Shown piece after piece: positions 35,626 through 40,419 of a stretch of DNA of 64,000 bases; position 1 is the first letter of the stretch, and each line of letters starts with the position of its first letter. Location: positions 1,116,001-1,180,000 of the forward strand of contig NZ_CP053661.1 of the NCBI RefSeq assembly GCF_013177315.1, in the 5' to 3' direction. The notes beneath the pieces are model-generated. The model did not search any database. It was not told the origin of the DNA and saw only the letters and a program-made list of their open reading frames with translations. The stretch comes from Thermoleptolyngbya sichuanensis A183. GTDB taxonomy: Bacteria > Cyanobacteriota > Cyanobacteriia > Elainellales > Elainellaceae. The translations under genes were made by a program, and so were the position numbers.

Positions 35626-38247
35626 ATGTCCTTTGTCGGTCTGCATATTCACAGCGACTATAGCCTGCTAGACGGCGCGAGTCAGCTTGACCAGCTCATC
35701 GACCGGGCGATCGAGCTTGGAATGCCAGCGATCGCCATTACGGATCACGGCGTGATGTACGGCGCGATCGAGATCCTCAAGGTGTGCAAAAAGCGCGACA
35801 ACGCCGTCAAGCCCATCATCGGCAACGAGATGTATGTGATCAACGGCGACATCACCAAGCAGGAGCGTCGCCCCCGCTATCACCAGGTTGTTCTTGCCAA
35901 AAACACGCAGGGCTACAAGAATCTCGTCAAGCTGACCACCATTTCTCACCTCCAGGGTGTGCAGGGGAAGGGCATTTTTTCGCGCCCCTGTGTCAACAAA
36001 GAACTGCTGGAGCAGTATAAAGACGGGCTGATTGTCACCAGCGCCTGTCTCGGCGGCGAAGTGCCCCAGGCGATTATGCAGGACCGCCCGGATGTGGCGC
36101 GGCGCGTTGCCCAGTGGTACAAGGACGTGTTCGGTGACGATTACTATCTGGAAATTCAAGACCACGGGCTGCAAGAAGAGCGCATCGTTAACCCCGAAAT
36201 CGTCCGCATTGCCCGCGAGCTAGACATCAAGCTGGTCTGCACCAACGATTCGCACTATATCTCCTGCTACGACGTGGAAGCCCACGACGCGCTGCTCTGC
36301 ATCCAAACGGGCAAATCCATCGTGGAAGAGAAGCGGCTGCGCTACACGGGCACGGAGTATTTGAAATCCGCCGATGAGATGCGGCTTTTGTTCCGCGATC
36401 ACCTACCGCCGGATGTGGTGGAAGAGGCGATCGCCCATACGCTAGAAGTCGCCGAAAAGGTCGAAGGCTACAAAATTCTGGGTGAACCGCGCATTCCTAA
36501 CTACCCTGTGCCCGACGGCTACACGCCTGCCACTTACCTCGAAGAAACCTCCCGATCTGGGCTAGCCAAGCGCCTTAAAGTCGCCACCTACCGTGAAGTT
36601 CCCCCAGACTATCAGGAGCGGCTGGAATACGAGCTGCAAATGATGCACCAGATGGGCTTCGACGGCTACTTTCTGGTGGTGTGGGACTACATCAAGTTTG
36701 CGCGAGATCATGGCATTCCCGTGGGCCCAGGGCGCGGGTCGGCGGCGGGGTCGCTGGTGGCCTACTCGCTGGGCATCACTAATATCAATCCGGTGCATCA
36801 CGGCTTGCTGTTCGAGCGGTTCCTGAACCCTGAGCGCAAGTCCATGCCCGATATCGACACAGACTTCTGCATCGAACGTCGGGGCGAGGTGATTCAGTAC
36901 GTCACCGAAAAGTATGGCACCGATCGCGTCGCGCAGATCATCACCTACAACCGCATGACCTCCAAAGCCGTCCTAAAGGATGTGGCGCGGGTGCTGGATA
37001 TTCCCTATGGGGAATCCGACAAGATGGCGAAGATGATTCCCGTCGTGCGCGGCAAGCCCACCAAGCTCAAGGTCATGATTTCCGACGAAACGCCCACGCC
37101 GGAATTCAAGGAAAAATACGATAGCGATGCCGTTGTGCCTGGCAGCGATCCGCCCGTCACCTACCGCCGCTGGATTGACATGGCCATGCGGATCGAGGGC
37201 ACCAACAAATCAACCGGCGTTCATGCGGCGGGCGTGGTGATTTCGGCAGAACCGCTGGACGAAGTGGTGCCGCTGGAACGCAGCAAGGAAGGCGGCGTGA
37301 CGACGCAATACCCAATGGAAGACATCGAACTGCTGGGTCTGCTGAAGATGGACTTCCTGGGCCTAAAGAACCTGACGATGATTCAGAAAGCGGTGGATCT
37401 CATCAGCAAGACCCACGGCATTCAGGTTGATTTGGACAATTTGCCGATGGAAGATCCGGCCACCTATCAACTGCTGGCGCGGGGCGAACTGGAGGGCATC
37501 TTCCAGCTAGAATCCTCCGGGATGCGGCAGATTGTGCGCGATCTGAAGCCGTCGGGACTGGAGGATATTTCCTCGGTGCTGGCGCTGTATCGTCCCGGGC
37601 CGCTGGATGCGGGGCTAATTCCCAAGTTCATCAACCGCAAGCACGGTCGCGAACGGATCGAATATGAACACGAGCTGCTCACCACCATTCTGAATGAGAC
37701 TTACGGCATCATGGTCTACCAGGAGCAGATCATGAAAATTGCCCAGGACATGGGGGGCTATTCGCTGGGGCAAGCCGACCTGCTGCGGCGGGCGATGGGC
37801 AAAAAGAAAAAAGAGGAGATGGAGAAGCATCAGAGCATCTTCACCGAAGGTGCAGAAAAGAACGGCGTGCCCAAGAAGGTGGCGGCGGATCTGTTTGACC
37901 AGATGGTGAAGTTTGCGGAGTATTGTCTGAGCTATGACACGAAGATTTTGACTGTGGAATATGGGGCGATCGCCATTGGCGAAGTTGTAGAACGCCAGCT
38001 TCCCTGCACTGTGTTCAGCGTCGATGCCAACGGGTTTGTTTACACGCAGGCGATCGCCCAGTGGCACCAGCGCGGGCTGCAAGAGGTCTTTGAATACACC
38101 CTGGAAGACGGTTCCACCCTCCGCGCTACCCCCGATCACAAGTTCATGACGGAAGATGGCGAAATGCGCCCCATTGACGAGATCTTCGAGAAAAACCTGG
38201 CGCTAAAACGAGTTGCCGTCCCTGTGCCTGCTGGTTCGAGAGTTTGA
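35626..38247 (+). CDS. dnaE: DNA polymerase III alpha subunit, N-terminal half, fused to the N-part of a split intein
   Basis: Residues 1-766 are the N-terminal two thirds of the replicative polymerase. The PHP domain starts at [14 protein letters not shown], followed by the polymerase palm with [14 protein letters not shown] and the catalytic aspartates D409 and D411 in PDIDTDFC. Residues 767-873 are the N-terminal part of the DnaE split intein: C767 directly after KFAEY, block B as RATPDHKFM, and an end rich in Val and Pro. The protein must be joined to the product of the gene at 39082 by trans-splicing to yield a complete 1175-residue DnaE. In well-studied cyanobacteria the two halves lie far apart. 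Here the second half follows 834 bp downstream on the same strand. Confidence 0.97.
37924..38244 (+). other. N-intein coding segment (107 codons)
   Basis: Begins with the splice-junction cysteine codon TGT at 37924 ([14 protein letters not shown]) and runs to the stop. It closely resembles the known cyanobacterial DnaE N-inteins, with a somewhat longer tail ([11 protein letters not shown]). Confidence 0.95.
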
Positions 38248-38287
38248 GCAATGATCTCCCCAAGCCTTTACCCTGGTGAGTCCTGAA

Positions 38288-38950
38288 ATGGTTAGCACTG
38301 CTCCCCAATTTTCAATTCCTCGGTCTGCCCTGGCCGGAGAGCGGCGGGTCACGATTCATCAGCTTAGCTGGCAGGGCTATCAGCAGATTCAGCAGACGTT
38401 GGGAGAACGGCGATCGCCCCGCCTCGCCTACGACCAAGGCACGCTAGAGCTAACCATGCCCCTGGAAGAACACGAAAGTTTTGCAGAATGGATTGGGCTA
38501 TTGATTCGGATTTTGGTGGAAGAGTTTGGGTTAAAAATGAAGTCCATCGGTTCTACAACGCTGGAGTATCCGAATCGGGAGCGCAGCGTTGAACCGGATA
38601 ACGCTTACTATATTCAAAATCAGGCGAAGGTGAGCGGGCGACGCATTAATTTTGAGCAAGATCCCCCGCCTGATTTAGTCGTGGAAATCGACATTACGCA
38701 CACGGATATTGATAAAAACCGCCTCTATGCCAGCATCGGGGTTCCGGAGTTTTGGCGCTTTAACGGCACCGCCCTAAGCATCTACCAACTGCAATCTCAA
38801 GCCTATGTTGAAGTAGAACATAGCCCGACGTTTCCTAAAGTACCCAAAGACAAGTTCTATGAGTTTTTGCAGCAGGCCAGCCGCGATGAAGTAGAGGCAA
38901 GTCGCGCACTGCGGGCGTGGGTTCGTCAGTTGCAGTCAGGCGATGTTTAG
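38288..38950 (+). CDS. Uma2-family (PD-(D/E)XK nuclease fold) protein between the dnaE halves
   Basis: A 220-residue protein from the ATG at 38288, with GGTGAG about ten bases upstream; GTG at 38276 is an alternative. It shows the Uma2/DUF820 pattern common in cyanobacteria: TIHQLSWQGYQQI, the acidic EPDNAYYIQN, the core PPDLVVEIDIT with putative metal ligands D and E, and the downstream NRLYASIGVPEFWRF. The putative active site looks intact. The family has the restriction-endonuclease fold, but its biological role is not established. It is read in the same direction as both dnaE halves, in another frame, starting 40 bp after the first stop codon and ending 131 bp before the second half. Confidence 0.88.
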   Translation: MVSTAPQFSIPRSALAGERRVTIHQLSWQGYQQIQQTLGERRSPRLAYDQGTLELTMPLEEHESFAEWIGLLIRILVEEFGLKMKSIGSTTLEYPNRERSVEPDNAYYIQNQAKVSGRRINFEQDPPPDLVVEIDITHTDIDKNRLYASIGVPEFWRFNGTALSIYQLQSQAYVEVEHSPTFPKVPKDKFYEFLQQASRDEVEASRALRAWVRQLQSGDV

Positions 38951-39008
38951 GGAGTAATCGAGATTGGGATAGGCATGAATCGGTAGTAAAGATTGGATTT
39001 TTAAGTTG

Positions 39009-39056
39009 GGTTTCACGGTAGGTTTCACCGCAGGTTTTACGGTAGGTTTCACAGAC
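39009..39056. repeat. 12-bp tandem array upstream of the dnaE C-half
   Basis: Four 12-bp units: GGTTTCACGGTA, GGTTTCACCGCA, GGTTTTACGGTA and GGTTTCACAGAC. It ends 25 bp before the ATG at 39082, so it lies in the leader of the C-half mRNA. Confidence 0.9.
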
Positions 39057-39081
39057 GGAAGGGGAAGGGGCGATCGCCAAA

Positions 39082-39189
39082 ATGGTTAAAATTATCAGCC
39101 GCAAGTCATTAGGCACCCAATGGGTTTACGATATCGGTGTTGAGCGCGATCACAATTTTGTGCTGGAAAACAGTCTGATTGCCTCCAAT
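39082..39189 (+). other. C-intein coding segment (36 codons)
   Basis: Encodes the C-terminal intein fragment that associates with the N-intein from 37924-38244. It ends with the AAT (Asn) codon at 39187-39189, directly before TGT (Cys+1). Confidence 0.95.
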
Positions 39190-40419
39190 TGTTTTAATAA
39201 ATCCCACTCTACAGCCTACGGCTACGTCACGTTTCAAACGGCGTACCTAAAAGCCAATTACCCCGTGGAATATATGGCGGCGCTGCTGACGGCCAACAGC
39301 GACGACCAGGACAAAGTGCAGAAATATATTTCCTCCTGCACGATGATGGGCATCACCGTGGAGCCGCCAGACATCAACCGATCGGGCGTGGATTTTACGC
39401 CGCTGGAGCGCAGCATTTTGTTCGGGCTGTCGGCGGTGCGAAACGTGGGTGCAGGCGCGATCGAGAATATTTTGCAGGCGCGAGAGGCCGATGGCCCCTT
39501 CAAGTCTCTGGGCGATCTGTGTAGCCGCATCGACCCGCGCACGGTGAACCGGCGAGCGCTGGAGGCACTGATCCAGTGTGGAGCAATGGACTGCATCGAG
39601 ACGAATCGGCGGCAGTTGATGAATGATCTGGATTTGGTGCTGGAGTGGGCGCAGTCGCGGGCGAAGGATCGGGCAATTGGGCAGGGGAACCTGTTTGATA
39701 TGCTGGGCAGCATCAGCGAAGCGCCGGGGAGCTTCGAGTCTGCGCCTAAGGCTCCCGCCGTAGAGGACTTTCCGCAGCAGGAGCGGCTAAAGCTGGAAAA
39801 GGAACTGCTGGGCTTCTATGTGTCGGATCATCCCCTGAAAAATATTCGAGAAGCCGCCAGAATCCTAGCGCCGATTAACCTGAGTAGCCTGGAAGAGCAG
39901 CCGGAGGGCAGCAGCATTAGCGCGATCGCCATGCTGACGGGGGTCAAGCCCGTGGTAACCAAGAAGGGCGATCGCATGGCCATCATCCAGCTTGAAGACC
40001 TGACGGGGCACTCCGAAGCCGTCGTCTTTCCGCGCACCTATGAGCGCATCGGCAGTCTCATCGTGCAGGAGGCGCGGCTGATGATCTGGGGCAAGGTGGA
40101 CAAGCGCGACGAGCGCAGCCAACTGATTGTCGAGGATGCCGAACCCGTGGAGGACGTGCAGTTGGTGATGGTAGAGCTAGACGCACAGATTGCAGGCGAC
40201 ATTGTGCAGCAAAACACCCTGCGCGAGGTCATTCTCAAAAACCGGGGCGACGAAGACCAGTGCAAAACGCCCGTCGTGGCGATCGTCGCTGGGGCGCATC
40301 GTCGGGAGCTGGTGCGTCTGGGCAATCAGTTCCGCGTGCAGGATTATCAGGCCGCTGTAACCGCGCTGAACCGAGCCGGATTCCGCGCCCGATCGACCGC
40401 GTTGACCAGTGCTTCTTGA
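39082..40419 (+). CDS. dnaE: C-part of split intein fused to the C-terminal half of DNA polymerase III alpha
   Basis: Residues 1-36 are the C-intein (YDIGVERDHNFVLEN, ending IASN), with the catalytic Asn at 36 and the C-extein nucleophile Cys at 37 (CFNKSHSTAYGYVTFQ). Residues 37-445 are the rest of DnaE: the end of the fingers and helix-hairpin-helix region (FGLSAVRNVGAGAIENIL), then the OB-fold domain (ISAIAMLTGVKPVVTKKGDRMAIIQLED) and the tau-interacting C-terminus. The ATG at 39082 is preceded by a GGAAGGGG stretch. The frame is in the same register as the N-half (start-to-start distance 3456, a multiple of three). It converges with the dihydroorotase-like gene, 17 bp away. Confidence 0.97.
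   Translation: MVKIISRKSLGTQWVYDIGVERDHNFVLENSLIASNCFNKSHSTAYGYVTFQTAYLKANYPVEYMAALLTANSDDQDKVQKYISSCTMMGITVEPPDINRSGVDFTPLERSILFGLSAVRNVGAGAIENILQAREADGPFKSLGDLCSRIDPRTVNRRALEALIQCGAMDCIETNRRQLMNDLDLVLEWAQSRAKDRAIGQGNLFDMLGSISEAPGSFESAPKAPAVEDFPQQERLKLEKELLGFYVSDHPLKNIREAARILAPINLSSLEEQPEGSSISAIAMLTGVKPVVTKKGDRMAIIQLEDLTGHSEAVVFPRTYERIGSLIVQEARLMIWGKVDKRDERSQLIVEDAEPVEDVQLVMVELDAQIAGDIVQQNTLREVILKNRGDEDQCKTPVVAIVAGAHRRELVRLGNQFRVQDYQAAVTALNRAGFRARSTALTSAS

Follow-up and report, generated by a model that had tools for sequence, protein, structure and literature searches.

A gene for a predicted Uma2-family nuclease between the linked halves of a split DnaE intein in a cyanobacterium

Results

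We analyzed a window of 64,000 nucleotides from Thermoleptolyngbya sichuanensis A183 (assembly GCF_013177315.1, contig NZ_CP053661.1, positions 1116001–1180000) in which dnaE, encoding DNA polymerase III alpha, is divided by a split intein, and a gene of the Uma2 family lies between the two halves. The upstream open reading frame (ORF), at 35626–38247, encodes the first part of DnaE and the N-terminal intein segment (dnaE-n/IntN); the downstream ORF, at 39082–40419, encodes the C-terminal intein segment and the rest of DnaE (IntC/dnaE-c). Both are on the + strand, 834 bp apart, and the interval 38248–39081 is the exact space between the stop of the first and the start of the second. It contains one real gene, that for Uma2, which is co-oriented with both halves. 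The features of the locus are as follows.

35626–37923, + strand: dnaE N-extein, with the PHP, polymerase and finger domains of DNA polymerase III alpha (Pfam PF02811, PF07733, PF17657; NCBIfam PRK09532)
37924–38247, + strand: IntN, 107 amino acids, from Cys1 (CLSYDTKIL...) to the stop codon TGA (TIGR01445 intein_Nterm, E 1.8e-14; sequence)
38288–38950, + strand: gene for a predicted Uma2-family PD-(D/E)XK nuclease, 220 amino acids (PF05685; alignment A2; fold match to 6okh, 9y1l and 3ot2; PADLOC PDC-S17, E 5e-41)
38951–39081, no strand: non-coding spacer (sequence)
39082–39189, + strand: IntC, 36 amino acids (MVKIISRK...LIASN; TIGR01443 intein_Cterm; alignment with other IntC)
39190–40419, + strand: dnaE C-extein, first residue Cys+1 (CFNKSHS...; PF14579, PF01336; PRK07373)

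The locus has the hallmarks of a split intein: IntN begins with Cys1, IntC ends with Asn followed by Cys+1, and the two segments are encoded by separate ORFs. Textbook DnaE split inteins have distant halves, unlike those of the window, which are close together with a nuclease gene between them. In its insertion site (EY/CFN), its split point, and the 36-residue length of IntC, the window intein is like the Ssp and Npu DnaE split inteins (Caspi et al., 2003). The spacer in front of IntC carries about four imperfect 12 bp direct repeats resembling GGTTTCACGGTA, at roughly 39008–39053.

A preliminary description of this DNA had placed a Uma2-family gene, in the same orientation and with its putative metal ligands intact, at the position where contiguous inteins often carry a homing endonuclease; the ORF map and a Pfam profile scan (PF05685, E 6e-23; score 81.6 bits, cut-off 27) bear this out. 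The ORF call starts at GTG 38276, but ATG 38288 is the better start, because the other copies found between dnaE halves share the conserved N-terminus MVST(A/T)P. The residues E and D (of EPD), D and E (of PPPDLVVE), and D and K (of DIDK), numbered E105, D107, D132, E136, D138 and K146 in alignment A2, are invariant across 19 relatives, so the ligands are indeed intact; the probable catalytic residues of the window protein are D (38597–38599), D, E and K. An AlphaFold2 model (predicted local distance difference test score 82.7) has a restriction-endonuclease-like fold, and its best Foldseek matches are the solved DUF820/Uma2 structures 6okh, 9y1l, 1wdj and 3ot2. The protein thus resembles the Uma2/DUF820 family in profile, predicted fold and conserved acidic and lysine residues, and from the last two we infer that it is a separate metal-dependent nuclease. 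The window genome (G000; G and L numbers are our handles for genomes and loci) contains 15 Uma2-like matches; of the paralogs, the best match to the gap copy (C1:4337956-4338588) shares 59% identity with it. An expansion of Uma2 genes has been reported in Thermosynechococcus (PMC9403480).

Using IntN and IntC as queries, we searched 390 genomes of the class and retrieved loci with both segments close together on one strand. This gave 32 loci with linked dnaE halves, and in 21 of them the gap holds a nuclease gene or a relic of one, which answers the call in the preliminary description for a search of linked loci in relatives. Two Uma2 subfamilies account for 10 genes at nine loci, plus two relics. 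Type A, to which the window gene is related, occupies the gaps of G000, G133, G224, G264 and G052 (two tandem copies in G052); type B occupies those of G012, G025, G020 and G028, and G003 and G322 retain C-terminal relics of it. Four gaps, in G040, G152, G182 and G149, contain a free-standing LAGLIDADG gene (PF14528, E 2e-11), of which a 3' relic survives in G078. The gaps of G066, G112, G288, G336 and G384 hold the gene for a 226-residue protein with a D...ExK signature, which we call VEAK. Its predicted fold is of the PD-(D/E)XK type, with matches to the nuclease domains of BpuSI and DrdV at Z ~10, below mitoribosomal chains at Z ~16. Three of the four types of gap nuclease therefore have a PD-(D/E)XK fold, VEAK by prediction. 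The remaining linked gaps contain a D12 methylase, an SLFN-AlbA protein, a DUF4139-like protein, a large kinase on the opposite strand, PemK, or little; besides nucleases, the occupants of the slot include PIN/AbrB and PemK toxin-antitoxin genes, D12 methylases and JukB-like genes. Uma2 and a JukB-like gene occur together in G133 and G309. Among 17 unlinked pairs of halves, G313 retains a frameshifted type A Uma2 gene directly behind IntN, and G104 retains a gene of a 421-residue family.

Several other observations were made during the census. A family of 420–474 residues recurs in the gap (L085, L086, L098 and L102, from G133, G011, G028 and G020), and weak similarity (E 5e-9) to the JukB defence profile was seen in its G011 copy. 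Nodosilinea sp. LEGE 07088 has, at a contig end, a gene of a third, divergent Uma2 subfamily (L181, 197–958; Pfam E 4e-14), which lies 50–60 bp upstream of IntC, possibly in another linked gap. Extra IntN fragments that resemble a partial duplication lie downstream of a complete dnaE-n/IntN (G317:C167:9284-9493 and G345:C89:820-1035). Contiguous DnaE inteins that lack any endonuclease were found at L130, L172 and L113 (G370), and the junction in L172 and G370 reads like a re-fused split locus of the LAGLIDADG type. G252 was considered as a contiguous intein with an insert and was rejected; the locus is split, and its gap is short.

The LAGLIDADG ORFs fit the gap tightly: they start at or just past the stop codon of IntN, and most run on for a few bases into the IntC ORF. 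Remnants persist in short gaps, from both ends of the gene in Limnofasciculus baicalensis (L123), from its last codons in Lyngbya aestuarii (L170), and from its 3' end in G078. Of solved structures, the closest relative of the protein is 2dch, a putative homing endonuclease (E 1.5e-6). In a set of 214 genomes, members of the family were found solely at the dnaE gap (G149, G152, G182, G040, G078 and G093), apart from one distant homolog of 26% identity; in G093 the gene is next to IntN where the contig ends, and the end of another contig carries a further fragment. The family thus has the restriction to one locus that is characteristic of homing endonucleases, and it is a credible candidate for the original homing endonuclease of the DnaE intein. 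The window Uma2 accordingly sits where relatives hold a genuine free-standing LAGLIDADG gene, as the comparison with endonuclease-bearing inteins in the preliminary description had implied.

That description had also suggested, as one possibility, that an originally contiguous intein became split when the Uma2 gene inserted into its endonuclease region. The gene is positioned at the break point, as this would require, but the split point is identical whether the gap holds LAGLIDADG, Uma2, other genes or nothing, and it is the same in lineages whose halves are distant. Relatives with linked halves and no Uma2 gene, which the description had named as the finding that would tell against it, were looked for and found. 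Because the same break occurs without Uma2, Uma2 was not the cause of the split, and the split therefore predates its arrival. The junctions point the same way, those of LAGLIDADG being tight and those of Uma2 loose. We regard a split made by Uma2 as effectively refuted, and as an explanation of this locus it is scarcely conceivable.

Another suggestion was that the position of the gene is due to chance, as Uma2 genes are abundant in cyanobacterial genomes and one might have fallen into the gap; the slot does also accept unrelated genes. The counts do not bear this out. The 53 kb of gap DNA contains 10 Uma2 genes where 0.14–0.29 are expected, and all are on the dnaE strand. As a control we used 71 dnaE-c loci without a nearby IntN. 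BLAST and HMM (hidden Markov model) controls miss divergent Uma2 proteins such as that of L181, so a Pfam scan of the 135 upstream neighbour genes was added; at most two of these are Uma2. The gap copies also group in the Uma2 tree to an extent matched in 0 of 500 shuffles. The Uma2 gene in the dnaE gap is not a chance neighbour, and we consider an accidental insertion highly improbable.

A search of 380 genomes with the window Uma2 gave, as its best non-self matches, copies in the dnaE gaps of other families (G052, G224, G264 and G309); for type B Uma2, VEAK and the 421-residue family, too, the best non-self matches are gap copies. In the Uma2 tree all gap copies of type A fall in one group, which contains four non-gap members. 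Monophyly of the eight gap copies alone was rejected (p 0.0009), and a clade of these copies plus the displaced copy of G304 was compatible with the data (approximately unbiased [AU] test, p 0.50). The gap genes are under purifying selection, with a ratio of nonsynonymous to synonymous substitution rates (dN/dS) of 0.10–0.20. We conclude that the window Uma2 belongs to one lineage that is resident at the dnaE locus across three families, and that it is a later, resident occupant of the slot.

In G304, whose dnaE halves are far apart, a cassette of type A Uma2, JukB-like and VEAK genes lies on the - strand away from dnaE (L281, 268–2808; G304:C1:1126500-1131500).

The co-occurrence of these three genes could mean that Uma2 belongs to a mobile cassette for defence (Uma2, the JukB-like protein and the PD-(D/E)XK protein) for which the dnaE gap is one of several landing sites. 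The matches to the JukB and PDC-S17 profiles and the pairing of Uma2 with a JukB-like gene in G133 and G309 are consistent with this. Against it, the window has Uma2 alone, and the gap copies are mutually closest, so that residence fits better than repeated landing. We think it even less probable than an accidental insertion.

The distribution of the intein raises the question of transfer. On the extein tree G000 groups with its congener G001 (support 100/100), which has no intein. In the intein tree, by contrast, G000 stands beside G314 and G224, the latter from another family (91/82), and the Uma2 tree also places it beside G224 (94/93). Presence of the intein is patchy within genera, with G224 positive against six intein-less congeners and G000 positive against G001, and on the extein tree it requires 15 changes, or 17 losses without regain. 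A single clade of the f1 inteins was marginally rejected (AU 0.036). However, vertical descent was rejected neither for the G000 intein (AU 0.32) nor for its Uma2 (0.175), and no dip in identity that would mark a co-conversion tract in dnaE was seen near the site when intein-bearing genomes were compared with intein-less congeners in four pairs, one of them G000 with G001; all four pairs differ by 10–15%, so that old or short tracts would be invisible. Mobility of the G000 copy is therefore only suggested.

The preliminary description had raised the possibility that the gene could still protect or mobilise the locus. These data bear on a further explanation of that kind, in which Uma2 is a replacement homing endonuclease. 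The enzyme would cut dnaE alleles that lack the intein, close to the FAEY/CFNKSH junction, and repair templated by the intein-bearing allele would copy IntN, Uma2 and IntC as a unit, a form of collaborative homing established after turnover of the LAGLIDADG enzyme. The patchy distribution and the conflict between trees are what homing could produce; Uma2 shares its slot with a real LAGLIDADG endonuclease and has the right fold, and turnover of homing endonuclease genes at collaborative loci has been discussed for phages (PMC10448857). On the other side are the absence of an identity dip and the acceptability of vertical inheritance noted above, and the family is large and general, as the 15 matches in the window genome illustrate. 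Unlike the LAGLIDADG family, moreover, the type A Uma2 clade is not confined to dnaE and so lacks the locus restriction of homing endonucleases. We consider homing by Uma2 unlikely, though deserving of serious attention. Slightly more doubtful is the broader proposal that the DnaE split intein lost LAGLIDADG, recruited Uma2 PD-(D/E)XK nucleases at least twice and another protein of this fold once, and that these drive collaborative homing of the three cistrons.

Discussion

We favor, with a confidence a little above even, the interpretation that the locus is a fractured DnaE intein with a slot for a nuclease, and that the window Uma2 is resident cargo in that slot. The locus would comprise three co-directional cistrons: dnaE-n/IntN, a nuclease gene, and IntC/dnaE-c. 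The middle slot would first have held the free-standing LAGLIDADG homing endonuclease seen in relatives, which then decayed or was displaced, and other genes would have settled there afterwards. The residues of IntN and IntC are intact, as judged from sequence, and the two should trans-splice to yield DnaE; because the halves would be joined at the protein level, genes in the slot would leave dnaE undisturbed. Uma2 may persist as a useful or selfish nuclease that is safely placed next to an essential gene; its target would most likely be foreign DNA. Its match to the defence candidate PDC-S17 and the variety of genes in the slot appear to favor cargo, which we consider at least as likely as homing; we place cargo first and homing second.

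Several points weigh against this interpretation. The type A clade has three or four members outside the gap (G304, G124, G027 and G099). If there were only two or three independent arrivals, the chance probability of the association would be ~4e-4 to 0.03 rather than 1e-12, and divergent Uma2 subfamilies such as that of L181 could be under-counted in the controls. The putative link with defence is purely one of profile similarity, and the predicted nuclease activity derives from a structural model and conserved residues.

Fractured genes in which split inteins flank a free-standing endonuclease gene were reportedly described by Dassa and colleagues in 2009 (NAR 37:2560), and those cases are said to be metagenomic or phage genes with an endonuclease of a Vsr-like (EDxHD) family. 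The locus described here is like them in that the break lies at the intein, the halves would be joined by trans-splicing, and a free-standing gene with a nuclease fold (in relatives, LAGLIDADG) stands in the break; it differs in that the intein is that of a chromosomal cyanobacterial dnaE and the nuclease is LAGLIDADG, Uma2 or another PD-(D/E)XK protein according to species. The arrangement thus matches a known type of fractured gene, with the variation that the nucleases at the DnaE locus are replacements. The titles and abstracts covered by our literature search mentioned no nucleases between dnaE halves; older Trichodesmium papers were outside its scope.

The window lineage differs from the Uma2/DUF820 family in general in being tied to the dnaE intein. 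We know of no Uma2 member that is a homing endonuclease, and I-Ssp6803I is, to our knowledge, not a Uma2 protein. That enzyme, a homing endonuclease of the PD-(D/E)XK type from a cyanobacterial tRNA intron (Zhao et al., 2007, as cited in PMC10448857), is a precedent for a restriction-type fold in a cyanobacterial homing enzyme and, unlike the window Uma2, is intron-encoded.

Protein engineering relies heavily on DnaE split inteins, and the origin of their split is unsettled. Linked loci in which a LAGLIDADG gene lies flush between IntN and IntC resemble an intermediate in splitting, and the relics and replacement nucleases in the slot show what follows the split. The locus also offers a natural setting in which to test for the recruitment of restriction-type nucleases as homing enzymes, and the series of slot occupants suggests how the DnaE inteins that are now in wide use came to be split.
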